52,819 nt of DNA from a virus: positions 1 to 52,819 of IMG/VR virus record IMGVR_UViG_3300035703_000127, one strand, 5' to 3'. Made by a program: the position numbers and the translations under genes. The notes beneath the pieces were generated by a model that made no database searches, was not told where the DNA came from, and was given only the letters and a program-made list of their open reading frames with translations. Position 1 is the first letter of the stretch, and each line of letters begins with the position of its first letter. Positions 547 through 50,802 of this stretch are shown here, piece after piece.

Positions 547-563
547 CGCCCTGGCCCCCTGGG

Positions 564-573
564 CCAGCTTTCC
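564..573 (-). promoter_or_regulatory. Junction motif copy, 27 nt before ATG at 546
   Basis: Minus-strand GGAAAGCTGG lies just past the TGA (576-578) of the preceding gene. No purine-rich Shine-Dalgarno is needed to explain it. Confidence 0.7.
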
Positions 574-3401: not shown

Positions 3402-3440
3402 GGTTCAGGTCGGGGCTCACCCCCGCCGTGATGGTGCGGC

Positions 3441-3450
3441 TTAGGTTTCC
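3441..3450 (-). promoter_or_regulatory. Junction motif copy overlapping a stop codon
   Basis: Minus-strand GGAAACCTAA, 49 nt before the scaffold ATG. Here the motif itself encodes the Glu-Thr-stop end of the 52-aa gene at 3441-3599. Confidence 0.6.
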
Positions 3451-5987: not shown

Positions 5988-6003
5988 CGGCCAGGGGCTT
6001 TGT

Positions 6004-6015
6004 CCCTAGCTTTCC
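6004..6015 (-). promoter_or_regulatory. Junction motif copy, 28 nt before ATG at 5987
   Basis: Minus-strand GGAAAGCTAGGG directly follows the TGA of the 6017-6268 gene. It uses the AG variant at positions 9-10. Confidence 0.8.
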
Positions 6016-7473: not shown

Positions 7474-7489
7474 GGTCTGCGCTTGCTAT

Positions 7490-7501
7490 CCCTAGCTTTC
7501 C
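7490..7501 (-). promoter_or_regulatory. Junction motif copy, 28 nt before ATG at 7473
   Basis: Minus-strand GGAAAGCTAGGG. Its first G is the last base of the TAG stop of the 7501-8247 gene. Confidence 0.8.
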
Positions 7502-16243: not shown

Positions 16244-16687
16244 TCACACCTCCGCAGGAATCACCACGGCCGGGTTGCTCCAGCGCACCACCGCCTGGGC
16301 CAGCCCGGTGGTGACGCCCGGCAGGGTCACGTCGTTCCAGGCCGCACCCGGCAGCAGCGCCACCAGACGCTCCAGCACCGCCTCGTACTGCCAGTCCCCC
16401 AGATTCGGCGGCTGCCACTGGGTCACCGTGAGCCGCCAGGTGGGGTTCAGCTGCTGCTCGCCGGTGGCCCAGGGCTGCGGGGCAGTACTGCTCTGGCGGC
16501 GGATCACCACCTCCACGCCCTGGGGCTCCACACCGGGGGGCATGGACTCGTTGGGCCAGAGCACCGCCAGGGCGCTCAGCACGGTGCCATCGCTGAAGCG
16601 ATAGCTCCCCAGCAGCGCCATCAGCGCCGCATCCGCCTCCAGCCAGTCGTAGATCGCCTGGGGATCGGTGGGGTAGGGACTGGCCAT
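16244..16687 (-). CDS. Probable tail terminator or completion protein, 147 aa
   Basis: Size, acidic-aromatic composition and layout (DPQAIYDWLEADAALMALLG; then VVIRRQSS...WRLTVTQW) fit the small proteins that cap siphovirus tail tubes. It lies between the tail tube and the tape measure. ATG at 16687 is only 13 nt after the first base of a junction motif, a spacing shared with the gene at 50789. The stop lies 3 nt before the tape measure start. Confidence 0.65.
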   Translation of the reverse strand: MASPYPTDPQAIYDWLEADAALMALLGSYRFSDGTVLSALAVLWPNESMPPGVEPQGVEVVIRRQSSTAPQPWATGEQQLNPTWRLTVTQWQPPNLGDWQYEAVLERLVALLPGAAWNDVTLPGVTTGLAQAVVRWSNPAVVIPAEV

Positions 16688-16690
16688 GCT

Positions 16691-16700
16691 CCAGGTTTCC
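16691..16700 (-). promoter_or_regulatory. Junction motif copy, 13 nt before ATG at 16687
   Basis: Minus-strand GGAAACCTGG runs into GAGC-ATG, so here the motif tail also supplies a GGAG Shine-Dalgarno. It is back-to-back with a plus-strand copy 12 bp away. Confidence 0.75.
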
Positions 16701-19129: not shown

Positions 19130-19147
19130 GCTGGGGGCGCATGTAAG

Positions 19148-19157
19148 CCAGCTTTCC
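19148..19157 (-). promoter_or_regulatory. Junction motif copy, 28 nt before GTG at 19129
   Basis: Minus-strand GGAAAGCTGG. An out-of-frame ATG occurs between motif and GTG, but the 28-nt rule selects the GTG that opens the chaperone frame. Confidence 0.75.
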
Positions 19158-19624: not shown

Positions 19625-20103
19625 CGCGTCTCCGCGAAGATCCCGGCGAACTTGTCGCCTGCCGCAGCCCGCAGCCGGGCGCCGATGCCACCACTGCCGT
19701 AGGGATGACTGATCTGGCTGAGGGTGAGCCAGCCCAACTCGGCGTCATCCACCGCCGGCAGACCGCTCAGATCGCCCCAGCAGGCCTGCAGCGTCTCCCC
19801 CGCCTTGAGGCCCTGGGGCCGGAGGCCGTTGTCCTGCCACGGCCAGCTCAATCCCAGCCCCAGCCAGTCGCTGCCCGGCGGCAGCACGGCATGGCGCACC
19901 AGGAAGCCCGACAGGCCGAACTGGCCGATCGCCAGGCCACCGGTCTGCTGCTCACCGCCACCGGCCTCACTGCTGCGGGCCCAGGCATCGATCACCACGA
20001 TCTCGGTGGGCACGCGCGAGCCATCGCGGAAGTTGGGGATGGCGGCACTGCGGCGCTCGAACCGCAGCCGGAGGTTGGCGTAGGCGGCAAAGGGGGAGGC
20101 CAT
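19621..20103 (-). CDS. Probable head closure or neck protein, 160 aa
   Basis: Lies between the connector candidate and the gp10-like protein, the usual place for a head-closure protein. Starts MASPFAAYANLRLRFERRSA and contains PTEIVVIDAWARSSE and LGLGLSWPWQDNGLRPQG. Short beta-rich protein without membrane segments. Assignment by order only. Confidence 0.6.
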   Translation of the reverse strand: MASPFAAYANLRLRFERRSAAIPNFRDGSRVPTEIVVIDAWARSSEAGGGEQQTGGLAIGQFGLSGFLVRHAVLPPGSDWLGLGLSWPWQDNGLRPQGLKAGETLQACWGDLSGLPAVDDAELGWLTLSQISHPYGSGGIGARLRAAAGDKFAGIFAETR

Positions 20104-20591
20104 CAGCTGCGCAGCAACACCCCGACGCTGGCGCCGTAGCCCATCTCGCTCAGGCCGATGGCGGCGAGCACCTTGGCCTGCAGGTCAGCGATGCGCGCGC
20201 CACTGGCGCCGTTGGCTGTGGCCATCTGGCCATCGCCGGCGGTGATGCGCACCTTGTAGAGCGTCTCGGTGTCGTACTGGAGCACGTCCACCTGGCGCAG
20301 CATGTCTTCTCGGGTGGGTTCAGCGCCGGGGCGGAGGCCCTCGTAGGTCTTGGCGGAATCCAGGTGGGCTCTGCCATCAGCCACCTTGCCGGCATAGGCC
20401 GCCTCCAGGGCGGTGGCCTCATCGATCCAGGCGCGGCACTGGGTCACGGTGGTGGGGCTGAGGGCCGCGACACTGTTGAGGGCACTCACCAGGTGCTGGA
20501 TGCCCGATTCGGTGACCGGGATGGCGGCATAGGTGCGGATGGCCTCGCGATCCGACTCACGCCAGAGGGGATTGAGGGGCGGGATCGCCAT
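20103..20591 (-). CDS. Probable head-tail adaptor, 162 aa
   Basis: First gene of the connector block. Helical protein (IQHLVSALNSVAALSPTTVT; CRAWIDEATALEAAYAGKVA) with size and helicity fitting gp6/gp15-type adaptors that dock under the portal. Junction motif 28 nt before the ATG. Stop overlaps the next ATG as TGATG. Confidence 0.6.
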   Translation of the reverse strand: MAIPPLNPLWRESDREAIRTYAAIPVTESGIQHLVSALNSVAALSPTTVTQCRAWIDEATALEAAYAGKVADGRAHLDSAKTYEGLRPGAEPTREDMLRQVDVLQYDTETLYKVRITAGDGQMATANGASGARIADLQAKVLAAIGLSEMGYGASVGVLLRS

Positions 20592-20607
20592 TGCGCCGGC
20601 TCGGGTG

Positions 20608-20619
20608 CCTCAGGTTTCC
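20608..20619 (-). promoter_or_regulatory. Junction motif copy, 28 nt before ATG at 20591
   Basis: Minus-strand GGAAACCTGAGG, two nt after the TGA of the preceding MAGN-type gene. No Shine-Dalgarno-like run lies between it and the ATG. Confidence 0.85.
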
Positions 20620-20621
20620 GC

Positions 20622-20999
20622 TCAGCGGCGCCGATCGAGACCCGTGTAGCGGTAGCCGGCCGGCCTGGGGGCGCCAGCGGCGATCCCGCGGGTGAACCCC
20701 ATGCGCTGGGCGCGCTCCGGGTTGCGCGCCACATCCTGGGCGCCATAGCCAGCGCGGTAGAGGCCGTTCACGGTGGCCAGCTGCCGCACGCTGATCCGCT
20801 TGCCGGTGAGATCGGTGCCGCGGGTCCGGGCACGGTTGGGGGCCCCGCCGATGGTGCCGTCAGGCCGGCGAATCCCGGACACCAGCTGGAATGCTTCCGA
20901 GCGGGAGGTGCCGAAGCCCGTGAGGCCTTCACGCTTCACCTTGCTGCCCTGGCGGCCTGGGGCTCGGGTGCTGCCTGCCTTGCTGTTGTTGCCTGCCAT
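20622..20999 (-). CDS. MAGN-tagged basic protein 1, 125 aa
   Basis: Most diverged tag in the family: MAGNNSKAGSTRAPGRQGSK. The body includes GLTGFGTSRSEAFQLVSGIR and GKRISVRQLATVNGLYRAGY and is Arg/Gly-rich with no membrane segment or cysteine. It sits last in the first cluster, just before the head-tail adaptor, so it is likely co-expressed with late genes. Function unknown. The shared tag with a different body suggests targeting rather than a common activity. Confidence 0.82.
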   Translation of the reverse strand: MAGNNSKAGSTRAPGRQGSKVKREGLTGFGTSRSEAFQLVSGIRRPDGTIGGAPNRARTRGTDLTGKRISVRQLATVNGLYRAGYGAQDVARNPERAQRMGFTRGIAAGAPRPAGYRYTGLDRRR

Positions 21000-21015
21000 G
21001 GGCCCGGCGCCGTTG

Positions 21016-21027
21016 CCTCAGGTTTCC
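21016..21027 (-). promoter_or_regulatory. Junction motif copy, 28 nt before ATG at 20999
   Basis: Minus-strand GGAAACCTGAGG, three nt after the TGA of MAGN protein 2. Confidence 0.85.
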
Positions 21028-21030
21028 AGC

Positions 21031-21468
21031 TCACCAGGCCTGGCGCCTCCCTTCATTCCAGGCGCGCTGATCCATGCCCCAGCGCCGGTTGGCAAGTGCT
21101 TGCCGACTGCCCCGGGGCCGGCGGCCACCTGGCTTGCTGTTGAACTTCTCGCTGTTGCGGGTCTGAAGCCGTGGGCGGTTGCCGTAGGTGGAAGCGGTGC
21201 CGTAGTCGCGCATGAAGTTCTGCGCACGCTCCGCCGTCAAGCGTGACTGCTGCGCGCGCTTCATGTCGCTGTTGATGCGCTTGTCCCTGGCGTAACGGGT
21301 CATGTCCAACGGATACGGCGTCCTCTTCTCGATCGCCACCCGTCGGGCCAGAGCGGTCACTGTGCGCTCCGCCCGGCGCTGCAGTGTGGCGTTATCGAAT
21401 GAGTTGGCTGGGCCGACAGCACCTCCAGCCGTCCGGCCACTCCCTGCTCGACTGCCGTTGCCCGCCAT
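21031..21468 (-). CDS. MAGN-tagged basic protein 2, 145 aa
   Basis: ATG at 21468 is chosen although the frame stays open to 21777: this start gives the tag MAGNGSRAGSGRTAGGAVGP and lies 29 nt after the junction motif. The body is highly basic and helical (TVTALARRVAIEKRTPYPLD; RINSDMKRAQQSRLTAERAQ), ending RAWNEGRRQAW. Candidate nucleic-acid- or capsid-interior-binding protein, by charge only. Confidence 0.82.
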   Translation of the reverse strand: MAGNGSRAGSGRTAGGAVGPANSFDNATLQRRAERTVTALARRVAIEKRTPYPLDMTRYARDKRINSDMKRAQQSRLTAERAQNFMRDYGTASTYGNRPRLQTRNSEKFNSKPGGRRPRGSRQALANRRWGMDQRAWNEGRRQAW

Positions 21469-21485
21469 GGTCCTGCTGCCTGATG

Positions 21486-21497
21486 CCTCAGGTTTCC
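21486..21497 (-). promoter_or_regulatory. Junction motif copy, 29 nt before ATG at 21468
   Basis: Minus-strand GGAAACCTGAGG that also encodes the Glu-Thr-stop end of MAGN protein 3. AGGA lies close to the downstream ATG. Confidence 0.85.
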
Positions 21498-22135
21498 GAC
21501 CTGCCCCGCCGCCGCCGCTTGGGCGTGCCACCGCTGTTGCGGGGGCCCGGCCGAAGGTTGTTCCTGCCGGCCTTCGGTTTGCCTTTGCCCATGTACGCCA
21601 TCTGGTTGCCGTAGATCTCCCGCGCCCTGGCGGCTGGCTTGCTGCCACGCGCTGCAGCATCAGCAGCACGCTGCATCCGCCGCTGGATGGCCTTGGCGCC
21701 GATCCGGGTTCCGACCACGCCGATCTCGACACCGGCCAGCATCCGGTCAATCGGATCCTTGGAAAGTCGCCTCTCAATCGCCCGAGCGGCGCTGCGCTCG
21801 TTCTGCCGCATCATCTTGTCAACCTGAGGCCGCTTGGACTTCACCGCATCGCTAAAGCGCTTCATCTCGGCGTCCAGATCCTTGATTGAGCGCTCGGCTT
21901 GCCGCTCGATCTGGCCCAGCCGGAGCCTGGGCGTCTTCGGGTTGAAGGAGCGGACGGCATTGGCCCGCAGTGCCAACGGCTGCCGCCGATTGCTGCGCCC
22001 GCTGGTGGGGATCACCACGCTGCGGGGCTGAGGCCTCGGCAGGCCAGCCGTGGCCCTGATGCTGTTCCCGGCCCCCTGCACCGAGACCCCGCCTGCGGAT
22101 CGGGCGCTACCGGCCCGACTGCCATTACCTGCCAC
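21488..22135 (-). CDS. MAGN-tagged basic protein 3, 215 aa
   Basis: Longest family member, with a GTG start at 22135 confirmed by the tag (MAGNGSRAGSARSAGGVSVQ) and by a motif exactly 28 nt upstream. The central helix-rich region (RLGQIERQAERSIKDLDAEM; PQVDKMMRQNERSAARAIER) suggests a coiled coil. The C-terminus is a very basic RNNLRPGPRNSGGTPKRRRR segment ending RSET, with the stop inside the motif of the next gene. Confidence 0.83.
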   Translation of the reverse strand: MAGNGSRAGSARSAGGVSVQGAGNSIRATAGLPRPQPRSVVIPTSGRSNRRQPLALRANAVRSFNPKTPRLRLGQIERQAERSIKDLDAEMKRFSDAVKSKRPQVDKMMRQNERSAARAIERRLSKDPIDRMLAGVEIGVVGTRIGAKAIQRRMQRAADAAARGSKPAARAREIYGNQMAYMGKGKPKAGRNNLRPGPRNSGGTPKRRRRGRSET

Positions 22136-22151
22136 GGCATCACCGCCACTG

Positions 22152-22163
22152 GCTCAGGTTTCC
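22152..22163 (-). promoter_or_regulatory. Junction motif copy, 28 nt before GTG at 22135
   Basis: Minus-strand GGAAACCTGAGC, two nt after the TGA of MAGN protein 4. GGTGAT just before the GTG may act as a Shine-Dalgarno. Confidence 0.85.
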
Positions 22164-22165
22164 GC

Positions 22166-22585
22166 TCAGCGCTGGCGACGGATCACCCCAGCTCGCTGCC
22201 CTGCCTTTGGCTGCGGCAGGCCACTGCGTGGGCCCACCACGTAGCCCCAAGTGCCATTGGGCAGCCGAAACTCTGATGCCCTCCAGCGGGGGGATTCAAC
22301 CCAGGTGCGGCTCATGCCGTTGGATCCGATCAGCCCGATCTTCCGGCGCCGGGCTGGCGTCATGTCCTTGTCAGCGAGGAAGACCTGGTTGGGTTGAGGG
22401 AACAACCGCTGGGCAGCCTTCAGCTGGGTCAGCTGCTCCAAGGCCTGGTCTTCCTTGCTCGCCCGGGGTGCTGGTGCTTGGGGGCGCTTGATGGCCACCA
22501 CCTGGCCGGTGCGTTGCAAGGGCTTGCTGCCAGAGCCTGGCCCCGTTGTGCGAGCGCTCCCCGCGCGGCTCCCATTGCCGGCCAT
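22166..22585 (-). CDS. MAGN-tagged basic protein 4, 139 aa
   Basis: Tag MAGNGSRAGSARTTGPGSGS followed by a Pro/Arg linker, a short helical part (QALEQLTQLKAAQRLFPQPN) and a strand-rich C-terminal part (GSNGMSRTWVESPRWRASEF; GTWGYVVGPRSG). It is one of the few members with a clearly compact-looking domain. Motif 30 nt before the ATG. Downstream of the PilZ island in transcription order. Confidence 0.82.
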   Translation of the reverse strand: MAGNGSRAGSARTTGPGSGSKPLQRTGQVVAIKRPQAPAPRASKEDQALEQLTQLKAAQRLFPQPNQVFLADKDMTPARRRKIGLIGSNGMSRTWVESPRWRASEFRLPNGTWGYVVGPRSGLPQPKAGQRAGVIRRQR

Positions 22586-22603
22586 CGTCGAACTGCTGCG
22601 ATG

Positions 22604-22615
22604 CCTCAGGTTTCC
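22604..22615 (-). promoter_or_regulatory. Junction motif copy, 30 nt before ATG at 22585
   Basis: Minus-strand GGAAACCTGAGG. The frame entering it encodes GGSQDIPGQPMET and stops in the motif, but has no start codon before an in-frame TAG near 22740. This looks like the tail of a lost gene. Confidence 0.8.
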
Positions 22616-22835
22616 ATCGGCTGCCCAGGGATGTCCTGAGACCCACCGCTGGGCACAGCAGCTGCGGTCTTACCGGTCCAGGAGGTGACTGGGCCATCAC
22701 CATCCCGGCAGTTCGGCTGGCTGGTCGGCTATGTCGCGCTGGGCAGATATGGAAGGCTTGGTCTATGCGTCTTCTGCATAGGAGCGATATGCGCTGTATG
22801 GGCTGGGTATGGTTCCGCCTGAATAGTTCTGCCCG
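22616..22835. other. Island edge with gene remnant and no intact gene
   Basis: Holds the startless minus-strand frame ending GQPMET near the left edge and an AT-richer stretch with repeated TATGCG/GATATG words to its right. The plus-strand PilZ start follows. I see no complete gene here. A weak plus-strand promoter for the PilZ gene could lie in this stretch, but no clear -35/-10 pair is visible. Confidence 0.5.
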
Positions 22836-23192
22836 ATGACGCCGGATTCGGCAGGTATAGACCTCGGCGCTATTCCTGGCCTAGAGCTACAGCGTGATAG
22901 GCGGAGAGCTGTTGGCGATCGGCGACAGGAGCTGCGCTACGTCCCAGAAGAGGGCAGTTGTCCTGTGCGGCTTAGGAAGGCCAGCTCAACCCAGCATCTT
23001 CAAGCGGATTTGCTTGACATCAGCACGCGCGCCATGCGGCTGGCCCTTCATCCTCAAGCGGCATTCTCCCTTGGGGAGCGGTGCATCACGACTTGGCGGC
23101 CGCCAGGAGCGGATGAGTTGAGCCTGGGAGGATGGGTCACCAGACTGGAGAAACACAGCTTAATTATTGTGATGACGTTGACATTTTCGTAA
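22836..23192 (+). CDS. PilZ-like protein, 118 aa
   Basis: Plus-strand gene in a minus-strand operon. Shows the two PilZ signatures in order: RQELR (R...R, about residue 30) followed by LLDISTRAMRLAL, the D.S..G motif with Ala replacing the last Gly. Strands continue through FSLGERCITTWRPP to GWVTRLEKHSLIIVMTLTF. PilZ domains bind cyclic di-GMP, and R...R and D.S contact the ligand. The Gly to Ala change leaves binding uncertain. AT-richer DNA and the opposite strand point to acquisition as a cargo gene. Confidence 0.65.
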   Translation: MTPDSAGIDLGAIPGLELQRDRRRAVGDRRQELRYVPEEGSCPVRLRKASSTQHLQADLLDISTRAMRLALHPQAAFSLGERCITTWRPPGADELSLGGWVTRLEKHSLIIVMTLTFS

Positions 23193-23225
23193 CAGTTAGC
23201 GGCAGCCTTGTTTCAGCATTTCAGG

Positions 23226-23237
23226 CCTCAGGTTTCC
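23226..23237 (-). promoter_or_regulatory. Junction motif copy with no gene at the expected distance
   Basis: Minus-strand GGAAACCTGAGG encoding the Glu-Thr-stop of the 90-aa gene. Downstream lies only the antisense PilZ gene, so the gene it once served has been lost or displaced. Confidence 0.8.
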
Positions 23238-23500
23238 GCCGGCGGCACGGCGATCTCCTCATACCCCCCTCTGGGCAACAGCAGCAGGTGGCCATCGCCC
23301 TCGCCGTCGTTGCTCAGATCGAACGGAACCATCTCGCAACAGGCCACAGCCGTGCCGGCATCCCTGTGGATGTAGACGTGCAGGGGCCGCCCCTGGCGGT
23401 CGCAGTCCGGCCAGGAGGCGATCTGCCCCTTGAGCTGCGCGACGGTCAACCCTTCCGGGTTGCGCAGGAACAGCGGATGCAGGCTCACTTCGCCATCCAT
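23228..23500 (-). CDS. Hypothetical acidic protein, 90 aa
   Basis: Reads MDGEVSLHPLFLRNPEGLTV, then GQIASWPDCDRQGRPLHVYI and LLLLPRGGYEEIAVPPAET. A small alpha/beta protein, acidic and untagged, unlike its MAGN neighbours. Start overlaps the stop of the 62-aa gene as TGATG. Function unknown. Confidence 0.7.
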   Translation of the reverse strand: MDGEVSLHPLFLRNPEGLTVAQLKGQIASWPDCDRQGRPLHVYIHRDAGTAVACCEMVPFDLSNDGEGDGHLLLLPRGGYEEIAVPPAET

Positions 23501-23688
23501 CAGCGCAACCGCATCAGCCAGCCACGGCCCTGGGCATCGAGGCTGGCCTCCAGCACCTGCACCACGCGATGGGCCTCCCGCTCCTCCAGCTCCAGGGCGG
23601 CCTGGCGCAGGCTCTGGCGGGCAGCCTCCTCATCACGGCCCAGAACGGCGACGTGGAGCATCAGCAGGGAGCGCAGGCCGGGATCCAA
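23500..23688 (-). CDS. Small helical hypothetical protein, 62 aa
   Basis: TTG at 23688 gives MDPGLRSLLMLHVAVLGRDE. A later ATG in the same frame would shorten it by nine residues. The rest is one or two charged helices (QSLRQAALELEEREAHRVVQ). It is coupled to the 90-aa gene downstream. Function unknown. Confidence 0.55.
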   Translation of the reverse strand: MDPGLRSLLMLHVAVLGRDEEAARQSLRQAALELEEREAHRVVQVLEASLDAQGRGWLMRLR

Positions 23689-23762
23689 CCGTAAGCCACT
23701 GATTCGATGCCGAAACAGTAGCGGGGCTGATCAGGAGCGCAAACGATTCAGGGTGGCGCGGC

Positions 23763-24104
23763 TCAGTAGAGGCGGGTTGCGGGGAAGCGGAACCCTGCCC
23801 GCCTCCTGCCAACGGCGAACAGCCCCATGTCCCGATACATCCGAGCGTTCTGCGCGGTCTGGAGGGTTCTTTCAGCCCGGCGGAGGCTGCCAGTGGCTAT
23901 GCGGCCGATGCGTGAATTGACCTCCCGAGCGGCACGGTCTTCCATTGGCCCCGTTCTCATCGAACCCTGGTTGTTGCGGCTGCGGGCGCCCTCGCTGGCC
24001 TTCACGAACTGGCTCACCTGCAGGGAGGTGGGCCGGGGTGGCTGCGACGCCACTGCGCCGCCACTGCTGCGACTGCTGCCGCCCCGTGAGCCGTTACCTG
24101 CCAT
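23763..24104 (-). CDS. MAGN-tagged basic protein 5, 113 aa
   Basis: Tag MAGNGSRGGSSRSSGGAVAS, then a mostly helical basic body (NSRIGRIATGSLRRAERTLQ) and a C-terminal RRRAGFRFPATRLY. The RRAERT heptad-like stretch recurs in proteins 2 and 5, hinting that some bodies are distantly related. Motif 28 nt before the ATG. Confidence 0.82.
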   Translation of the reverse strand: MAGNGSRGGSSRSSGGAVASQPPRPTSLQVSQFVKASEGARSRNNQGSMRTGPMEDRAAREVNSRIGRIATGSLRRAERTLQTAQNARMYRDMGLFAVGRRRAGFRFPATRLY

Positions 24105-24120
24105 GGTCCTGCTGCTGTTG

Positions 24121-24132
24121 TCTCAGGTTTCC
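24121..24132 (-). promoter_or_regulatory. Junction motif copy, 28 nt before ATG at 24104
   Basis: Minus-strand GGAAACCTGAGA, shortly after the stop of MAGN protein 6. AGGACC precedes the ATG. Confidence 0.85.
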
Positions 24133-24139
24133 GCTGCCT

Positions 24140-24538
24140 TCAGCTGTTCACCAGGCGGCTGCGCTTGCGGCCGGCTTTCTTTGTGGTGCCGGTGGTGCGT
24201 CGTTCACGGTTGGCGAAGCCGGCCTGCAGCGATTGCGGCATCCCCGTGGCCCGATCCGTGCGGAGGCTTTCGTAGAAGTTCCGCGCCCCGCGCTGGGTGG
24301 CATTGGTCTGCAGCAGGCGCCGGTTGTTGGCGTCTTGATCCCACCGGGGGCGATCAGCGTTGGCGATGTAGCGGCGGGTTTGCATCCGATCCCGGCTGGC
24401 CCGGGCATAACGGCGTTCAAAGGCTGCCTGGCTCACCGACGCCAGGGCGTTGATCGACTTGGGCTTGTCGCTGACGGCCGTTCCCCCTCCGCCGCCGGCT
24501 GCACGGGAGCTCCCGGCCCTGTTGTTGGCGCCAGCCAT
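24140..24538 (-). CDS. MAGN-tagged basic protein 6, 132 aa
   Basis: Variant tag MAGANNRAGSSRAAGGGGGT. The body contains many Arg, Asn and Tyr (ASRDRMQTRRYIANADRPRW; NATQRGARNFYESLRTDR) and ends in a basic KKAGRKRSRLVNS. It lies second in the cluster after the MuF-like gene. No known domain is recognised. Confidence 0.82.
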   Translation of the reverse strand: MAGANNRAGSSRAAGGGGGTAVSDKPKSINALASVSQAAFERRYARASRDRMQTRRYIANADRPRWDQDANNRRLLQTNATQRGARNFYESLRTDRATGMPQSLQAGFANRERRTTGTTKKAGRKRSRLVNS

Positions 24539-24554
24539 GGTCTGAATGCTGTTG

Positions 24555-24566
24555 CCTCAGGTTTCC
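24555..24566 (-). promoter_or_regulatory. Junction motif copy, 28 nt before ATG at 24538
   Basis: Minus-strand GGAAACCTGAGG following the TAA of MAGN protein 7 by about ten nt. Confidence 0.85.
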
Positions 24567-24576
24567 GGCTTGCTGC

Positions 24577-24927
24577 TTACCCCTGCCCCGCCGCGCGTTT
24601 CATGCGCCGGCGCATCTCCCGCAAACCTGCTGCCACCCCTGTGCCTGGCTCTTGACCAGCGCGCATGGCGGCGGTGAACGGATCGCGAATCTTGGTCAGC
24701 ACGCGGCCGCGCACGCTCATCATGTTGTCGAGACTGGCGTTAAAACCAGCGGCCTGAAACGCCTCTATGCGGGCGCGATCGGAGCGCAGCTTGCCATTGG
24801 ACATCACTCGGGCAAAGGCCTTTTCTTCCGCATTGAGGCGCAGCGGCGAGGGTGAAATCGTGCTGACTGGTTGGACCTTCGCTCCAGCACTGCGGCCACT
24901 TCCAGCCCGGTGCCCCGCCCCTGCCAT
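24577..24927 (-). CDS. MAGN-tagged basic protein 7, 116 aa
   Basis: Two adjacent ATGs exist (24930 and 24927). The second fits both the tag (MAGAGHRAGSGRSAGAKVQP) and the 28-nt motif spacing, so it is chosen. The body is helical and basic (KLRSDRARIEAFQAAGFNAS; GRVLTKIRDPFTAAMRAGQE). First member after the MuF-like protein, so probably made late with head proteins. Confidence 0.82.
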   Translation of the reverse strand: MAGAGHRAGSGRSAGAKVQPVSTISPSPLRLNAEEKAFARVMSNGKLRSDRARIEAFQAAGFNASLDNMMSVRGRVLTKIRDPFTAAMRAGQEPGTGVAAGLREMRRRMKRAAGQG

Positions 24928-24943
24928 CACCCTGCGCCATCTG

Positions 24944-24955
24944 GCTCAGGTTTCC
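24944..24955 (-). promoter_or_regulatory. Junction motif copy, 28 nt before ATG at 24927
   Basis: Minus-strand GGAAACCTGAGC that encodes the Leu-Glu-Thr-stop end of the MuF-like protein. Confidence 0.85.
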
Positions 24956-26031
24956 AGCGCCACGCTCGGCATCAGGCTCTCCAGCACCCCCGGGTAGCGC
25001 CGCTTCTCGCTGGCGGTTGGCAGTTTCAAGTAGCGCTGCAGCTCCTTGCGCGCGGCCGCGGGTTCCATCCCCTTGGCCTCGGCGTATTCCTTCCAGGCCT
25101 GCTGCTGGCTCTCGCGCCAGAACGCCTGATCCAGCAGCCCATCACGGGCCTCTCCGGCGGGGAGATCGGCCACCTCCTGGGGCACCGGCGTGGTCACGCA
25201 ACGGCAACGCGGGTGGGCCGGCGTCACCACCTTCCCGGCCGGGTAGATCTGCCCATGGCGGCTGGCGCAGTAGGGGCAGGCCCGTTCATCCTTCACCGCC
25301 ACCCAGCGCACGTACTCAAACCCCTGCCGCCGGGTGTGCTCCAGCTGTCCCTGCGCATAGGCCGTGGCCAGTTCACTGCGGGCGATCAGCGCCGCCCGTT
25401 GCCGCAGCCCCAGCGCACGGGTCTTGCCGGTGGGATCGCCGGCACCCTCCAGGGCACGCCGCACCTGGGCCTCCATCCGCTTGGGCCCCCACCCCCGCGC
25501 GGCCGCATCGGCCGTCACCGCCACCAGCTGTTCGCGGAACCGGGCCCCTTCTGCCCCCAGGTAGGCGCCGGCATTGCGCACCGCGGCCGCCACCGCCGGG
25601 CCGTTGGCACCGCCAAAGGGCAGCGCAGCCTCCGGGGCGCTCAGCTGGGCCAGCTCCCGGCTCAGCTCACCCCCCAGCCGCTGCGCTTCCGTCAGGTCGC
25701 GCTCCAGCTGCTGCTGCCACCGCAGGATCTCGGCCTCGCTGAGGAAGTCCTGGCTGATCTCCAGGATCGAGCGCAGCCGCGCCGAGCTTTCGCGGATCAC
25801 CGCGGCGCCACTGCGCTGCAACGGCCGCCCCTGGGCATCCACCCCTTCGGGTGCAGCGGCCTCCAGGTAGCGCCCGTAGGCCCGCTTCAGCTCAGCCATC
25901 ACCCCCGCCAGGCTGCGGCGCAGGGCCTCCACCGTGGCCGTTTCGCTGCGGGCCTCCAGTTGCCGCAGGGCCTCGGCATAGTCTTCGGCCAGCTGCAGGC
26001 TGGCTTCACCAATCCGCCGGCGGCGACTCAT
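24946..26031 (-). CDS. MuF-like minor head protein, 361 aa
   Basis: Minor capsid protein coded next to the portal, as in Mu and SPP1. The N-terminal 200 residues are long charged helices. Residues about 235-300 carry the gpF signature ARSELATAYAQGQLEHTRRQ, then WVAVKDERACPYCASRHGQI and PAHPRCRC, with the C..C/H/C.C zinc-like ligands intact. Start overlaps the portal stop as ATGA. The stop lies inside a junction motif. No fused toxin domain is visible at the C-terminus. Confidence 0.88.
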   Translation of the reverse strand: MSRRRRIGEASLQLAEDYAEALRQLEARSETATVEALRRSLAGVMAELKRAYGRYLEAAAPEGVDAQGRPLQRSGAAVIRESSARLRSILEISQDFLSEAEILRWQQQLERDLTEAQRLGGELSRELAQLSAPEAALPFGGANGPAVAAAVRNAGAYLGAEGARFREQLVAVTADAAARGWGPKRMEAQVRRALEGAGDPTGKTRALGLRQRAALIARSELATAYAQGQLEHTRRQGFEYVRWVAVKDERACPYCASRHGQIYPAGKVVTPAHPRCRCVTTPVPQEVADLPAGEARDGLLDQAFWRESQQQAWKEYAEAKGMEPAAARKELQRYLKLPTASEKRRYPGVLESLMPSVALET

Positions 26032-27635
26032 GCCACTGCGCGCTGTTGCTGCGCGCCCAGCTCAGCAGCGGCATTCAGCCCCCCGCCACCACCAGCAGGC
26101 AGGGCCTCAGGGGGGAGGCCCCCAGGCGGCAGGGCCCCGGGGGGCAGGGCCCCGGCCAGGTCGTTCACCCCAGGCACATTGCCAGCGACTGGCAGTTGCT
26201 TACGCAGCCGCTCCAGTTCATCGTCGGCGCTGGTCACCACCGTCAGCACACCGCCCTTGATGATCTGCTCCAGGAAGCTCTGGGTAGAAATCTGCTCGTT
26301 CTGCTCCAGCGACGACAGCTGCGCCACATCGGGGGCCGCCAGCGGTCGATCGAACAGGTGTGCCGCCATCGTGATCCCGGCTTCGGGGCTGAGACGCTCA
26401 CCGGTGAAGTTGCACCACAGCAGCATCAGCGCCTGCACCGCGGAGTTCTTGGCGGTGGCCACCGAACGCATCGAGGCCTCGGTGTGCGCAGCCTCCAGGC
26501 TGGCCTGGGTGGCGGTCTTGCTGCCGCCATCGCCGTAGAGGAATGCCAGGGTCTGCTCGCGGATCAGCGCTTCGATGTGGCTGATGTCCTGCGCCAGGTG
26601 GTTCAGGGAGCTGGCACCCGGTTCGGCAAAGCCAAAGCTGCCGTTGGGGTCCAGATCCACCACGCTGTTGGGCCCCAGCACCAGCGGCGCCACCTGCCCC
26701 CCAGGCCCGGGCAGGGCGCCCTTGCGCACCGGCACCGGCATGGCGGTTTTGTGCTTCAGCTCGGCATGGTCGGAGCGGCAGCGCAGGTGCTCCAGCGTCA
26801 GCTCCGCCAGCCCCGACAGGCGGATGCTGCCCTGGCCGAAGCCCTCCCGTGCCCCGGCGGCGTACCAGACCACCGGCGGAGCGGGGTAGGGCCGTCCAGC
26901 CGGTGCCTCGTAGTACCCCTGCTGGGGCACCCCATCGGCATTCACCGCCACCCGCACCGACGGCCGGCCGCCACTGCCGGCGCTGCCTTCCACGATCTCC
27001 AGCAGCCGCCAGAAGGCCTGGCCGTTGAGGGTGCCGATCAACCGGTAGCGGGGCTTGAGCTTGACGCCGTAGAGCCCGTCCTGCTCCTCAGCCCACTCGC
27101 GAATCACCAGCCAGTCGAGCACCTCCCGACCGCCCTCGTGGTGAACGCGCCAGTTCAGCAGGTTGCGGCGCTCCACCAGCGCCAGGTAGGGCCGCCGGTC
27201 TTCCGCCAGCTGGTGGCCGTTGGTGGGGACGCTGCCGGCCGGCATGTCCACGGTGATCAGGCAGCCGCCATCCCGCAGGGCCAGCTGATCGGCCTGCTGC
27301 AGAAAGCTGGTGAGATCGTTGCCGCGCCGGTCAATGTCATCGATGGCCCTCTCCAGGCTGGCTGGGGGGTTCTTGAGCTGGTAGCGGCTCAACACCCCCG
27401 CGAAGCTGGTGATGGCATCGCGGAAGAAGGGCACATAGCTGACCCGCCCCAGCCGCGCCTTGTAGGCGGCCGGTGGTTCCTTCGGCTCCTTGGGCAGGTA
27501 GTGCTCCAGCCGGCCCTTGAGGTAGTTCCAGCAGTCGCGGTTGCGATCGAGCTCCTCCAGCACATCGCGCAGCACGTGATGCTGATAGCTGGGCAGCTCA
27601 GGATCGGTTGTGGGGTGCGCGAACTTCTGCTCCAA
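26028..27635 (-). CDS. Portal protein (DUF4055 type), about 535 aa
   Basis: Forms the dodecameric vertex through which DNA enters. The TTG at 27635 is the first usual start codon; a CTG at 27650 would sit closer to the upstream motif. The N-terminal domain reads YKARLGRVSYVPFFRDAITS, followed by a wing/stem region (LVERRNLLNWRVHHEGGREV) and a helical crown (DISHIEALIREQTLAFLYGD). The end is Pro/Gly-rich with short repeats (LPPGALPPGGLPPEALPAGG). Position between terminase and MuF supports the call. Confidence 0.85.
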   Translation of the reverse strand: MEQKFAHPTTDPELPSYQHHVLRDVLEELDRNRDCWNYLKGRLEHYLPKEPKEPPAAYKARLGRVSYVPFFRDAITSFAGVLSRYQLKNPPASLERAIDDIDRRGNDLTSFLQQADQLALRDGGCLITVDMPAGSVPTNGHQLAEDRRPYLALVERRNLLNWRVHHEGGREVLDWLVIREWAEEQDGLYGVKLKPRYRLIGTLNGQAFWRLLEIVEGSAGSGGRPSVRVAVNADGVPQQGYYEAPAGRPYPAPPVVWYAAGAREGFGQGSIRLSGLAELTLEHLRCRSDHAELKHKTAMPVPVRKGALPGPGGQVAPLVLGPNSVVDLDPNGSFGFAEPGASSLNHLAQDISHIEALIREQTLAFLYGDGGSKTATQASLEAAHTEASMRSVATAKNSAVQALMLLWCNFTGERLSPEAGITMAAHLFDRPLAAPDVAQLSSLEQNEQISTQSFLEQIIKGGVLTVVTSADDELERLRKQLPVAGNVPGVNDLAGALPPGALPPGGLPPEALPAGGGGGLNAAAELGAQQQRAVA

Positions 27636-27663
27636 ACCGAGATCCGCCAGCGGCCACCTTCTG

Positions 27664-27675
27664 GCTCAGGTTTCC
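27664..27675 (-). promoter_or_regulatory. Junction motif copy upstream of the portal
   Basis: Minus-strand GGAAACCTGAGC. Its TGA is the in-frame stop immediately upstream of the portal frame. Distance to the TTG at 27635 is 40 nt, or 25 nt to the CTG at 27650, so the 28-nt rule is not met exactly. Confidence 0.7.
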
Positions 27676-27716: not shown

Positions 27717-28790
27717 TCAGGCGGCCAGATCCAGGAGCCCCAGCTGCAGGGCCTGGGCCTCCAGCTGCCGGCGGCTGCGGGGGCGCCGGGGGGGCGCCTT
27801 GGGCAGCGCCTGGTGGCCCGGCGGTTTGAGCTCCACGGCCAGCTGCAGCGCCAGCTGACGGCGCACCTCCGGCAGCCGCTGGCCTCGCAGTGCCATCCGC
27901 GCTGCCGTGAGGAACTGCCCCAGGGCCTGCATCGGCATCACCGGCCGCCGGCCGGGGTTGCTCCAGAACTGCTCCAGCGCCTGGCGGTCACTGCGATGCA
28001 GCCGCCCCCAGATCGTTTGCACCAGCTGTTCCACCGGCTGCAGCACGTCCGCCTCCAGCTGGGCATCGGCCTGACCCACCAGCTCCTCATGCAGTTCGGT
28101 GGTGCCCGCCATGGCGTTGAGCATTTCTTCGAGCTCTCCGGCCTTCAGCCCCACCGCCTGGCACACCACCTCGGGGCTCTGGCCAGCCTCCAGCAGTTTC
28201 TTGGCCCGCGGCATCACCTCCCGCCAGCGAGCGGGGAACTTGATCGCATACCCCCGGTCGCGGAAGTGGTGGAGGATCTCGCCGTTGATGTACGGCACCG
28301 CGATGGTGCTGAGCTTGTAGCCGCTGGCGGGGTTGTACTTGCGGCAGCCCTTCACCAGGCCGACAAAGGCAATCGCCTCCAGGTCGTCGTAGGCCAGCTG
28401 GGATTTGCGCGCCCATCCCCAGGCGTACTTGCGCGCCAGCTTCAGGTTGTCGGTGATCAGCTGCTCCGAGTCGAGCTCCTCGCCGGTGTCCGGGTTGACC
28501 CAGCGCCAGGGTGCAGGGAAGCCGCCGCGATCTACTCCGGCGCCAGCACCAGCTGACGGTTCCAGATCAGCAGTTCCCGAGGGGCCCGCTGCAGCTGGCT
28601 CAGGGGCGCTCGGCTCCACTCCCCCCCGAAGCGTCGAATCTCGATCTGGCGCTCCCGCAGTCGCCACAGCCCGCCGACGGGGAGACCGCGCACGGCGCTG
28701 GCCGTGGCCTCCGGCAGTTGATTCAGCGCTGAGCGGTGGGCCGTTGGGGCCTGGGAGGGCAGGGGCACAGCTGGGCGGTAGGTCAGTCAT
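27717..28790 (-). CDS. Phage-encoded RNA polymerase sigma factor
   Basis: Sigma-70 family, group 3 (SigB/SigF-like) layout. With ATG 28790 (AGGA upstream), region 2 spans about residues 111-182: ITDNLKLARKYAWGWARKSQ, YDDLEAIAFVGLVKGCRKYN and YKLSTIAVPYINGEILHHFR, carrying core-binding and -10 recognition helices. Region 3 (KFPARWREVMPRAKKLLEAG) follows. Region 4 is weak. Codon bias before about residue 85 is poor and a better-looking overlapping gene occupies that stretch, so the true start may be near 28540. It would redirect host polymerase to phage promoters. It is set oddly between terminase and portal. Confidence 0.75.
   Translation of the reverse strand: MTDLPPSCAPALPGPNGPPLSAESTAGGHGQRRARSPRRRAVATAGAPDRDSTLRGGVEPSAPEPAAAGPSGTADLEPSAGAGAGVDRGGFPAPWRWVNPDTGEELDSEQLITDNLKLARKYAWGWARKSQLAYDDLEAIAFVGLVKGCRKYNPASGYKLSTIAVPYINGEILHHFRDRGYAIKFPARWREVMPRAKKLLEAGQSPEVVCQAVGLKAGELEEMLNAMAGTTELHEELVGQADAQLEADVLQPVEQLVQTIWGRLHRSDRQALEQFWSNPGRRPVMPMQALGQFLTAARMALRGQRLPEVRRQLALQLAVELKPPGHQALPKAPPRRPRSRRQLEAQALQLGLLDLAA
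28532..28768 (-). CDS. Small hypothetical protein before the sigma factor, 78 aa
   Basis: GTG at 28768 opens a frame with strong third-position GC: MPLPSQAPTAHRSALNQLPE, then GLWRLRERQIEIRRFGGEWS and LIWNRQLVLAPE. This looks more like coding sequence than the sigma frame overlapping it. It stops exactly where the convincing sigma sequence begins, so it is either an upstream coupled gene or the N-terminal part of the sigma factor joined by a frameshift. Unknown family. Confidence 0.5.
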   Translation of the reverse strand: MPLPSQAPTAHRSALNQLPEATASAVRGLPVGGLWRLRERQIEIRRFGGEWSRAPLSQLQRAPRELLIWNRQLVLAPE

Positions 28791-28815: not shown

Positions 28816-30441
28816 TCACCGGAAGCCCGGGGCCTGGGGCGGCCGGCGCGGGGCAATCGGGCCCTGGGGGATCAGATCCCCAGGCTTGGGATCGGTGTAG
28901 TGCTCACTGCCACGGCCCCAGCTGGCGGTCGTCACCCGCATCGGGCCGGTGCCGGACACGTAGTTGAGGACCTGGGTGGTGCTGTCCACCATGTCGTCAT
29001 GGGCTGCACCGGGGAACCCCAGCAGCTGGTCTTCGTAGGGCTGCAGCCAGCCGGCACCGGTTGGATGCCAGACCCGGCCCTGCTCGTACCAGGGGGCAGC
29101 GGCATTGGCGCGGGCCTCTTTGCCCCCCAGGGGGCGCACGCTGCGGATCAGGTAGCCGCTGCTCTCACGGCTGAGGGTGTCGATCACCGCCGGGCCGTTG
29201 GCGGCATCCTCCACCAACAGCTCCCCGAAGTGCCAGCGGTGCCAGACCGTGGCCAGCAGGGCCAGGGTGTCGATGAATCCCAGGCGCTGATTGATCACGT
29301 CCCGCAGGAACATGCCATCGGCGCACTGGCTCCAAATCGTCAGCGCCACAAAGTCGCTGCCGCTGGTGCTTTTGAAGGTGCAGTCCAGGGACGCCAGGGT
29401 GCGAACGATCTGGCTCTGATCGATCTGCGCCGGGTCGTAATAGCGGAACCACTCGCGCTGGAAGAGGTTGCCGCCGGCCACCGTCGGCTGCTGCTGGTAG
29501 AGGGCCTGCCACCAGCGGGTTGCCATGGTGCCTTCGGTCTTGCGCAGCTGCTCAATCGGATAGCGCTCCGGGCAGAGGGCCTCACCGGGTTGGCGCCAGT
29601 CCGGCTCACGGGTGCAGCTGGCCGGCAGCGGGGTGTATTCGGCCTGGGGCAGGGCAATGGCCGCCAGGTCGATCACATGCCACCGCTCGGGTTCGGAACC
29701 CCGATCGAGGGCCTCATCTTCCTTGCTCAGCAGGAAGCCGGTGAGGTCATCGAGGGCCCAGCGGGTCTGGATCACCACCATCGCGCCACCGGGCTCCAGA
29801 CGGGTGGAGTAGACCGCATCCCACCAGTCCTTCATCGCCGCCTTGTAGCCCGCGCTGTCGGCCTGATTGGCATCTTTCACCGGGTCGTCGATCACCCCCA
29901 GGTGGAAGCCCTTACCGGTGGCTGCACCGGCGACACCCACAGCCCACATGCCACCGCGATCGAGGGTGCCCCAGCGGTTGACAGCGCGGCTGGCCGGATC
30001 AATCGGCCCACCGTCTTCCGTGAAGAACTGCCGGGCTTCGCGGGAGAGGGAATCGGCCAGTTCAGCGCCATAGCTGGCCAGACCCACCCAGCGCTCGGGG
30101 TGACGGCGCAGGAAGTAGGCCGGGAACAGCCGGCTGGTCAGCTGGGACTTGCCATGGCGCGGCGGGGCCTGAATGATCAGGCGCTTGATCTGGCCATCGG
30201 CCACCGCCTGCAGACGCTCCACCAGCACATCGACGTGCCGGTAGAACTCAAAGCGGGGTGAGACGCGGCGGATGAACTGGGCCAGGCTGCCCACCTGCTC
30301 GGCGTTCTGCTCGGGGGTGAGGGCCAGCTGGTGGCGCTGGCGCTGCTGCTCCAGGGCCTGGCACCGCTGCCAGGCCGAGTAGCCGCCAAAGCGCTTGGCC
30401 GCTCCCAGGTCCAGCAGGGCATCGCCCAGACGGCGGCTCAC
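28816..30441 (-). CDS. Terminase large subunit, 541 aa
   Basis: Packaging motor with ATPase and nuclease halves. Walker A is IIQAPPRHGKSQLTSRLFPA near residue 95, and Walker B is LGVIDDPVKD near 185 with an ATPase coupling segment after it (MVVIQTRWALDDLTGF). The RNase-H-like nuclease is in the C-terminal half with acidic residues in TLASLDCTFKSTSGSDFVAL, LLVEDAANGPAVIDTLSRES and AAHDDMVDS. Length is normal. The start overlaps the small terminase stop as ATGA. Confidence 0.95.
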   Translation of the reverse strand: MSRRLGDALLDLGAAKRFGGYSAWQRCQALEQQRQRHQLALTPEQNAEQVGSLAQFIRRVSPRFEFYRHVDVLVERLQAVADGQIKRLIIQAPPRHGKSQLTSRLFPAYFLRRHPERWVGLASYGAELADSLSREARQFFTEDGGPIDPASRAVNRWGTLDRGGMWAVGVAGAATGKGFHLGVIDDPVKDANQADSAGYKAAMKDWWDAVYSTRLEPGGAMVVIQTRWALDDLTGFLLSKEDEALDRGSEPERWHVIDLAAIALPQAEYTPLPASCTREPDWRQPGEALCPERYPIEQLRKTEGTMATRWWQALYQQQPTVAGGNLFQREWFRYYDPAQIDQSQIVRTLASLDCTFKSTSGSDFVALTIWSQCADGMFLRDVINQRLGFIDTLALLATVWHRWHFGELLVEDAANGPAVIDTLSRESSGYLIRSVRPLGGKEARANAAAPWYEQGRVWHPTGAGWLQPYEDQLLGFPGAAHDDMVDSTTQVLNYVSGTGPMRVTTASWGRGSEHYTDPKPGDLIPQGPIAPRRPPQAPGFR

Positions 30442-36127: not shown

Positions 36128-36520
36128 TCAGGGTTCGCGGTAGAGCAGGGACTGCCACACCCGCACGTCGCCGCGGTGGCGGCTGGGGCGGCTGGTGGTG
36201 ATGGTGCGATCGGTGCGCACGATCCAGCCCGCCTTGGCGGCCGCCACCATCACCGGCCCTGAGGCGCGGTTGTCGTGGGTGCTGATCCCCTCAGCCTCCA
36301 GGCCATCCCAGAGGTCGTTGGCGCTCACCTCCGGCCGGGCCAAGGCGGCGGCCCGCAGCACCCGCAACGCGGCCTGGCGGAACTCCGGCCGGGCGTGATC
36401 CCACACCTGGGCCATGCCGGCCTGTTTGCCCACCTCCCCCTGGCGGGGGCTGGTGCCAGGGGCTGCAGCCGCGGTGAACAGGGGCAGATCGTGGTACTGC
36501 CCTACGGCGCCAGCGGCCAC
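36128..36520 (-). CDS. Winged-helix-like hypothetical protein, 130 aa
   Basis: Residues about 48-125 read RVLRAAALARPEVSANDLWD, then ASGPVMVAAAKAGWIVRTDR and RHRGDVRVWQSL. This is a compact helix-helix-helix-wing arrangement seen in small phage DNA-binding proteins near replication genes. The start abuts the Gp157 stop at 36520. It may bind DNA or a replisome partner. Not proven. Confidence 0.62.
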   Translation of the reverse strand: MAAGAVGQYHDLPLFTAAAAPGTSPRQGEVGKQAGMAQVWDHARPEFRQAALRVLRAAALARPEVSANDLWDGLEAEGISTHDNRASGPVMVAAAKAGWIVRTDRTITTSRPSRHRGDVRVWQSLLYREP

Positions 36521-41628: not shown

Positions 41629-41645
41629 CTATCTGAAAGCCATTA

Positions 41646-41657
41646 CTCCAGGTTTCC
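41646..41657 (-). promoter_or_regulatory. Junction motif copy, 29 nt before ATG at 41628
   Basis: Minus-strand GGAAACCTGGAG, two nt after the TGA of MAGN protein 9. Confidence 0.8.
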
Positions 41658-41659
41658 GT

Positions 41660-42166: not shown

Positions 42167-42182
42167 GGGCCTTCGACTGGTG

Positions 42183-42194
42183 CCCCAGGTTTCC
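42183..42194 (-). promoter_or_regulatory. Junction motif copy, 28 nt before ATG at 42166
   Basis: Minus-strand GGAAACCTGGGG, shortly after the stop of the 72-aa gene. Confidence 0.82.
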
Positions 42195-42196
42195 GG

Positions 42197-42415: not shown

Positions 42416-42419
42416 GGGA

Positions 42420-43010: not shown

Positions 43011-43027
43011 CGTTTCTGCCCTCCACC

Positions 43028-43037
43028 ACAGGTTTCC
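43028..43037 (-). promoter_or_regulatory. Junction motif copy, 27 nt before ATG at 43010
   Basis: Minus-strand GGAAACCTGT, a slightly degenerate tail, just after the TGA of MAGN protein 11. Confidence 0.75.
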
Positions 43038-43039
43038 GA

Positions 43040-43450: not shown

Positions 43451-43453
43451 GGC

Positions 43454-43990: not shown

Positions 43991-44002
43991 CTGCTCAGCC
44001 CC

Positions 44003-44027: not shown

Positions 44028-44063
44028 AAGCCATGCGGGGCATCACGCCCGCCAGGCGGGGGC

Positions 44064-44414: not shown

Positions 44415-44430
44415 GACCCTGAAGCGTTTG

Positions 44431-44442
44431 CCTCAGGTTTCC
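44431..44442 (-). promoter_or_regulatory. Junction motif copy, 28 nt before ATG at 44414
   Basis: Minus-strand GGAAACCTGAGG encoding the Glu-Thr-stop end of the radical-SAM protein. AGGGTC precedes the ATG. Confidence 0.85.
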
Positions 44443-49119: not shown

Positions 49120-49135
49120 GCCGGTGGTGCGACTG

Positions 49136-49147
49136 CCTCAGCTTTCC
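49136..49147 (-). promoter_or_regulatory. Junction motif copy, 28 nt before TTG at 49119
   Basis: Minus-strand GGAAAGCTGAGG. Its TGA is the stop codon of the 55-aa gene, giving the ending Glu-Ser-stop. Confidence 0.8.
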
Positions 49148-50393: not shown

Positions 50394-50789
50394 CTATGGC
50401 CGTGCCCAGCGTGCCTCGATCAGCGCCGAGAGCTTGGGCAGCCAGATCGCTTCCTGTTTCTTGAGCATGGTGCCGGTGATCGCCAGGCAGGCCCAGCCGG
50501 AGGCCTGAGCGGTGAAGGCCTTGGCGCAGTCGCGCTCGATGCCAACACCGGAGCTGTGCTTTCCGAGGGTCCAGGTGCCACCCTGAATCTCCAGGGCCAC
50601 CTGCGCCTCAGGCCAGGCGAAGTCGGCCCGGTAGCGCACGCGGCGGGTCACCAGCCCCAGCGCCTTGCGCTCGGATGCCCAGGCCTCCCAGGCCGGGAGG
50701 CTGTATTCCCGCTCGAAGGGCAGGGCGGGATAGAGCTGCTGCCAGCGCGCCGCGAAGCGATCCTCAAGGGGTGAGCTGGTGCGTGGCAT
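50394..50789 (-). CDS. PD-(D/E)XK-like endonuclease, 131 aa
   Basis: RVRYRADFAWPEAQVALEIQ then GGTWTLGKHSSGVGIERDCA gives the spaced Asp, Glu-x-Gln and His/Arg residues of the small restriction-like nuclease fold found in phages (Holliday-junction or Vsr-like). The N-terminal WQQLYPALPFEREYSLPAWE is a typical lead-in. Probably acts on phage DNA intermediates. Motif only 13 nt before the ATG. Confidence 0.7.
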   Translation of the reverse strand: MPRTSSPLEDRFAARWQQLYPALPFEREYSLPAWEAWASERKALGLVTRRVRYRADFAWPEAQVALEIQGGTWTLGKHSSGVGIERDCAKAFTAQASGWACLAITGTMLKKQEAIWLPKLSALIEARWARP

Positions 50790-50790
50790 G

Positions 50791-50802
50791 CGCGAGCTTT
50801 CC
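50791..50802 (-). promoter_or_regulatory. Junction motif copy, 13 nt before ATG at 50789
   Basis: Minus-strand GGAAAGCTCGCG. Same short spacing as the copy at 16691. Confidence 0.65.

Follow-up and report, generated by a model that had tools for sequence, protein, structure and literature searches.

A phage sigma factor carried by a family of cyanobacterial siphophages is predicted to read a late promoter that consists of one conserved block and stands before most of the separately transcribed structural genes. We put the probability of this reading, which is drawn from sequence comparison, at about 85%. The window (the whole stretch of DNA analysed) is a 52.8-kb IMG/VR virus record of about 66% GC whose minus strand carries nearly all of the genes. 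The identity of the sigma factor, the motif, its fixed bimodal spacing, its co-occurrence with the sigma gene, the lack of a second block and the correspondence of sigma residues with motif bases were computed. The sigma gene, its parts and its neighbours are:

27717..28790, minus strand: phage sigma factor, sigma2-sigma3 plus a degenerate C-terminal part (Pfam, PHROG, family alignment)
28251..28469, minus strand: sigma region 2, residues ~108-180, containing H174 (28269-28271) and R177 (28260-28262)
28100..28250, minus strand: sigma region 3, residues ~181-230, containing A187 (28230-28232)
27849..28052, minus strand: C-terminal helices, residues 247-314, in region 4's place and unrecognised as Sigma70_r4
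28816..30441, minus strand: terminase large subunit, upstream neighbour of the sigma gene (phrog_38, 9e-102)
26028..27635, minus strand: portal protein, downstream neighbour (phrog_145, 6e-71) and the first motif-bearing gene after the sigma gene

The sigma open reading frame runs on the minus strand from an ATG at 28790 to a stop at 27717 and encodes 357 amino acids. Its protein has a Pfam Sigma70_r2 domain (E=1e-8, 35.3 bits against a cut-off of 24), the single such match in the whole record, which places it in the sigma-70 superfamily, and it matches the PHROG sigma families 36098 (3e-26) and 351 (9e-24). The original prediction had described a sigma-70-type protein with a weak region 4 between terminase and portal, and both parts of the description hold. 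AlphaFold predicts helices at residues 247-314 (pLDDT ~64-91 by block), in the place of region 4, yet no family model recognises them: Pfam gave no Sigma70_r4 match at E<=0.1 in the window protein, and none in its relatives when these were scanned up to E=1. The model, which is good for residues ~90-230 and 250-300 only (pTM 0.37), suggests that the C-terminal helices may still hold the beta flap. A Foldseek comparison of this model with the PDB returned many sigma factors at low TM, probably due to a flexible arrangement of domains, and the state of region 4 was not decided on it.

The motif recovered from the upstream regions of the window genes has the 14-base consensus GGAAA[CG]CTRRGSCA. 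The 13-mer GGAAASCTGRGGC occurs 17 times with at most one mismatch (0.63 expected), a number reached in none of 100 shuffles, and the core GGAAANCT is found 23 times on the minus (gene) strand against once on the plus strand. The motif lies upstream of 15 of the 21 non-coupled structural genes, six being without it, and of none of the 11 translationally coupled ones. Among non-coupled genes it precedes 5/9 at 41-50 kb and 1/14 elsewhere in the window, and the counts for coupled genes in the window are 0/11, 0/4 and 0/12. The claim that the motif stands before nearly every non-coupled late gene was thus real in substance and slightly overstated in extent. From the start of the motif to the start codon the distance is mostly 27-30 nt (mode 28) and in two cases exactly 13 nt, with outliers at 40 nt (portal) and 49 nt (a scaffold-like gene). 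No Rfam family matched in the window, and in 20-32 kb the scans for sigma-70 promoters and for terminators gave no more matches than shuffled sequence. The sites in the window are:

27662..27675, minus strand: motif GGAAACCTGAGCCA, 40 nt before the portal start
24942..24955, minus strand: motif GGAAACCTGAGCCA, 28 nt before gene 24577-24927
24553..24566, minus strand: motif GGAAACCTGAGGCA, 28 nt before gene 24140-24538
24119..24132, minus strand: motif GGAAACCTGAGACA, 28 nt before gene 23763-24104
22602..22615, minus strand: motif GGAAACCTGAGGCA, 30 nt before gene 22166-22585
22150..22163, minus strand: motif GGAAACCTGAGCCA, 28 nt before gene 21488-22135 (GTG start)
21484..21497, minus strand: motif GGAAACCTGAGGCA, 29 nt before gene 21031-21468
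21014..21027, minus strand: motif GGAAACCTGAGGCA, 28 nt before gene 20622-20999
20606..20619, minus strand: motif GGAAACCTGAGGCA, 28 nt before gene 20103-20591
19144..19157, minus strand: motif GGAAAGCTGGCTTA, 28 nt before gene 18359-19129
16687..16700, minus strand: motif GGAAACCTGGAGCA, 13 nt before gene 16244-16687, predicted leaderless class
7488..7501, minus strand: motif GGAAAGCTAGGGAT, 28 nt before gene 7117-7473
6002..6015, minus strand: motif GGAAAGCTAGGGAC, 28 nt before gene 5565-5987
3437..3450, minus strand: motif GGAAACCTAAGCCG, 49 nt before the scaffold-like gene 2571-3401, an unusual distance
560..573, minus strand: motif GGAAAGCTGGCCCA, 27 nt before gene 145-546
41644..41657, minus strand: motif GGAAACCTGGAGTA, 29 nt before gene 41173-41628
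42181..42194, minus strand: motif GGAAACCTGGGGCA, 28 nt before gene 41660-42166
43024..43037, minus strand: motif GGAAACCTGTGGTG, 27 nt before gene 42420-43010
44429..44442, minus strand: motif GGAAACCTGAGGCA, 28 nt before gene 44064-44414
49134..49147, minus strand: motif GGAAAGCTGAGGCA, a good copy 28 nt before gene 48463-49119, which encodes a ParB-like protein
50789..50802, minus strand: weak motif GGAAAGCTCGCGCA, 13 nt before gene 50394-50789

A degenerate copy, GGAACACTGGGCCATG, is found 13 nt before the QueE-like radical SAM gene 40165-40908. An orphan copy, GGAAACCTGAGGCC, at 23225-23237, falls between genes 22166-22585 and 23228-23500; no open reading frame follows it at the usual distance, and it is possibly the trace of a decayed gene.

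Sigma gene and motif travel together across viral genomes. A single-sequence search of IMG/VR found one relative of the sigma factor, L002, which is 72% identical, and the wider family was recovered by an alignment-based scan. When viral contigs were scanned for the motif with its spacing, most gave single matches and some carried four to seven copies. All multi-copy contigs that cover the head module (G011, G014, G015, G034, G036, G038, G047) encode a sigma homologue, in several of them directly before the portal gene; two more (G032, G035) are short fragments whose sequence seems to start downstream of the sigma gene. Single-copy matches, including ten long one-match contigs without a sigma gene, were judged to be mostly chance. 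In the opposite direction, a scan by sigma alignment alone gave 80 loci, and in the 915 kb of sequence counted the motif occurs 72 times on the gene strand and 19 times on the opposite strand, against 5 and 1 for a reversed-pattern control, with distances to start codons that peak at 30-34 nt. The motif was found in 29 of 32 whole sigma-bearing records. Terminase-selected loci without sigma (573 kb) stand at control level, with 0.10 motifs per 10 kb against 0.07 for the control and none at the right distance under the strict pattern. Among loci of GC>=0.55, a looser placed pattern has a site in 10/17 with sigma and in 1/13 without (p=0.007). The co-occurrence that the original prediction named as a check is seen in both directions. 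The case named there as refuting, the motif in relatives that lack the sigma gene, was met only in contigs that end before terminase and sigma, with one exception that stays: L231, a portal-selected 9.9-kb contig with its portal at 7.2 kb, has the motif, and terminase and sigma were undetected in it. Part of the co-occurrence is explained by co-inheritance within one phage family.

The motif also emerges de novo, from a 9-mer word count and an EM (expectation-maximisation) run to which it was not supplied. In most sigma-bearing records the top over-represented upstream 9-mer is CGGAAACCT or a variant close to it, at about 29 nt from the start. Run on the complete genomes of S-CBS2 and S-CRES1, EM gave tGGtAtcCTA and tGGtAtCCTA, centred 29-35 nt upstream, and on about 98 of the 107.5 kb of PSS2 it gave GGAAggCTAa with a score of 72.7, only a little above the 63.7 of the control. 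The form common to these three phages is GGWAnnCT[AG], 29-35 nt upstream, and a quarter to a fifth of all their genes have it before them. Over all upstream regions EM did not settle on the motif in G064, G065 and G077; the word count does recover it in G064, and in G065 it yields a weak variant, so that the sigma-bearing G065 and G077 have a weak motif or none de novo. A separate arrangement was seen at L082:2998-3024 (22998-23024 of the G036 record), where the MAIPNLNSLWR gene is preceded by two back-to-back motifs on opposite strands, one base apart, that form an inverted repeat; G032, G035 and G038 keep remnants of the second arm of this repeat.

The lack of a second conserved block upstream, as first described, holds on a larger set of sites: across 181 aligned sites (32+149), nothing is conserved 5-50 nt upstream beyond the immediate flank. 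A reading of the block as a -35 only, of the ECF-like GGAAC kind, was dropped as no conserved -10 follows it. Distances between motif and start codon fall into two classes, with 16 sites at 13 nt, 3 at 14-26 nt and 80 at 27-34 nt. At motif position 14, 66-84% of sites have an A, which in the 13-nt class is the first letter of the ATG. The 13-nt class is kept before orthologues of gene 16244-16687 in at least nine diverged phages. If transcripts begin at the A of position 14, leaders would be 0 or ~14-20 nt long. The bimodal spacing thus suggests mRNA leaders of either zero or at least ~14 nt, and we infer that the 14-26 nt gap stands for leaders that would be too short to allow leadered initiation. 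None of the 23 genomes has the motif before terL, the metagenomic ones also lack it before sigma, and in many genomes it appears from the portal gene onward, which fits a sigma factor made by host polymerase that then switches on the structural genes. PSS2 and S-CBS2 have a GGTAGACTG-type site 31-33 nt before sigma itself, which suggests self-activation in these two phages.

The closest solved sigma factor by sequence profile is S. aureus sigma-B (8x6g_H, E=6e-10, profile positions 2-131). Like group 3 sigma factors, the phage protein is most similar to sigma-B in regions 2 and 3; unlike them, it has no recognisable region 4 helix-turn-helix to read a -35. The -10 element of sigma-B is GGGWAW, in which R110, R100 and R97 read G-15, G-14 and G-13, and A-11 is flipped out in the promoter complex (PMC11156646). 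With G1 and G2 of the motif placed at -14 and -13, the phage block reads G-14 G-13 W-12 A-11 W-10, the sigma-B -10 minus its first G. In the window protein R177 is the equivalent of R100, which contacts G-14, and H174 that of R97, which contacts G-13, while A187 stands at the position of R110, which contacts G-15. Over 23 phage sigma factors the R100 equivalent is Arg in all, the R97 equivalent is His in 22 and Gln in one, and the position of R110 is taken by Ala, Ser, Thr, Asn, Asp or His and never by Arg. Base -15 follows this last residue: it is mostly C with Ala, Ser, Thr or Asn and G with Asp (6/6 sites, in G034), and shows no single preference with His. Independent residue changes behind the covariation number only about four, so it is strong support and not proof; a difference in GC content also sets the marine group apart. 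The phage proteins do not keep the aromatic A-11 pocket of sigma-B (F79, F86). GGWAW and the Arg for G-14 are thus common to the phage system and sigma-B (S. aureus and B. subtilis), whereas the phage system has lost G-15 with its Arg, has no -35 block, and shows conservation that runs on through the discriminator. Taken with the co-occurrence, this residue-by-residue fit argues for the proposal that the motif is a -10-type element for this sigma factor; the sigma-B-type reading is supported, short of proof. The G034 record (L079-L080) holds the most diverged sigma, with Asp at the R110 position, Gln at the R97 position and a two-residue insertion, and a shifted motif, CGGGAAACCTG, all six sites of which have G at both -15 and -6.

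The mechanism that we propose would start with production of the sigma factor from the terS-terL-sigma operon, itself not preceded by the motif. Using sigma2 and sigma3, the protein would bind the core RNA polymerase of the host and direct it to the single 14-bp block repeated before most separately transcribed structural genes. In this block a putative sigma-B-type -10 without its first G (C-15 G-14 G-13 W-12 A-11 W-10) would run straight into the conserved S-9 C-8 T-7 and then into the purine-rich discriminator RRGSC. With region 4 degenerate, no -35 contact would be made and specificity would come from the extended -10 and the discriminator. Transcription would probably start at or beside the conserved A at motif position 14, giving a leaderless mRNA where the motif is 13 nt before the AUG or a leader of ~14-20 nt where it is at 27-34 nt. 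Recognition of the motif by the sigma factor, the start point, late timing and leaderless translation are here predicted from sequence patterns. Whether the whole arrangement amounts to a group-3-like sigma factor that does no -35 reading we regard as evenly balanced: sigma2 and sigma3 alone would act on a contiguous GC-rich 14-bp block (a sigma-B-type -10 joined to the discriminator), every late gene transcribed separately would have a promoter of its own, and the start point would be locked so that leaders are either absent or ~14 nt and longer, and never of a length in between. The GC-richness of the block, unusual where a promoter has to melt, counts against a promoter reading.

Other readings of the motif have been weighed. 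It could be an operator for some other regulator, of phage or host, or be read by a host sigma factor, with the phage sigma merely travelling along; sigma and motif are both family traits, recognition by the sigma is a prediction only, and the divergent back-to-back pair in G036 and G032 looks operator-like. We nevertheless think this unlikely. The -10 of the closest characterised sigma factor aligns with the motif, whose one lost G matches the lost Arg. A fixed, bimodal distance to the start codon better suits a start-point element than an operator, and the single Cyanobium host-type genome that was scanned contains just one exact match, so the host makes no wide use of the motif. A role in translation initiation, like that of the start-associated sequences of cluster K mycobacteriophages, is less probable again. 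The distances from start codons are fixed and the GAGG within the motif resembles a Shine-Dalgarno core, but GAGG lies ~20 nt before the AUG in the main class and directly against it in the 13-nt class, and the Shine-Dalgarno reading was rejected as neither distance is workable. Ribosome binding does not predict two distance classes with a gap between them, and coupled genes also need translation, yet none of them has the motif (0/11, 0/4, 0/12). In the cluster K phages a short asymmetric repeat, GGGATAGGAGCCC, stands before many gene starts (PMC3203893); it lies immediately upstream of the start, has a different sequence and has no known reader, whereas the window motif is mostly at 27-34 nt, with a minority at 13 nt, and so does not sit immediately upstream of the start codon.

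Least probable of all, and by our estimate highly improbable, is a recombination or gene-cassette boundary in which the motif and an N-terminal tag form a duplicated mobile unit. Thirteen window genes do have the tag MAGNGSRGGSGRSAGG in common, and the motif is at 27-30 nt in 11 of them. Untagged genes (ParB-like, 5987, 7473, 16687, 20591 and portal) have the motif too, however; it is kept in phages whose tagged genes bear a different tag, and in S-CBS2, S-CRES1 and PSS2 it stands before a quarter to a fifth of all genes. The reading as a late promoter for the phage sigma factor is therefore the one that we prefer.

Several known systems come close to the proposed one. PSS2 ORF003, S-CBS2 gp077 (rpoS) and S-CRES1 gp20 (annotated SigF) belong to the same sigma family as the window protein, and in all three phages the order is terS-terL-sigma, with sigma always directly after terL. 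They differ from the window in a less GC-rich motif and a shorter sigma (206-244 amino acids), and these marine phages also have a second sigma factor (group 2 / RpoD-like). The paper on PSS2 left the target of its sigma open, and we found no published promoter for the post-terL sigma of cyanosiphoviruses, nor a description of cyanophage late promoters, in the open-access literature searched. Phage phiEco32 gp36 is a sigma factor without region 4 whose middle/late promoters consist of the single element tAATGTAtA, transcripts starting 6-8 bp beyond it (PMC8948821). The window system is like it in having one conserved block, no -35 and a sigma without region 4, a likeness of mechanism and not of common descent; the phiEco32 element is AT-rich, has another sequence and is described from six promoters. 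The late sigma factor gp55 of T4 docks where sigma domain 2 binds and has no domain 4 of its own (PMC2988020), but as a split sigma it needs gp33 as a sigma4 mimic and the gp45 clamp. Single-element promoters and phage sigma factors without region 4 are thus already known, and what is new here is a sigma-B-like protein and a GC-rich block that runs into the discriminator. If right, the reading would give the late-gene code of a widespread family of freshwater and marine cyanophages, with sites predicted in culturable isolates. It would also supply natural sigma/promoter pairs with linked residue and base changes, from a lineage without a -35 contact. With its two spacing classes the motif also opens leaderless translation during cyanophage infection to a direct test.

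Other features of the phage genome were noted. The glycine-rich tag starts thirteen proteins encoded in 20622-24927 and 41173-44414 whose bodies are unrelated, and nearly all tagged genes are 27-32 nt behind a motif; it could, as a guess, be a shared virion- or capsid-targeting signal. Relatives have one to five genes apiece with an analogous tag, MARTYKRDSRGRFAGGGG, and in two relatives the bodies of tagged proteins give weak DnaJ-domain matches. In the stretch that separates the portal gene's annotated TTG start from its motif (27635-27675), another frame reads VAAGGSRFGA, which resembles the tag of its neighbours and may be a remnant or an alternative start. The host of the phage is probably Cyanobium/Synechococcus. 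The genome also encodes a transposase (45430-46668, phrog_2331, E=2e-111) and a Mu Gam-like end-protection protein (36520-37107, E=1e-25), and by its gene content the phage looks like a Mu-type transposable siphophage.
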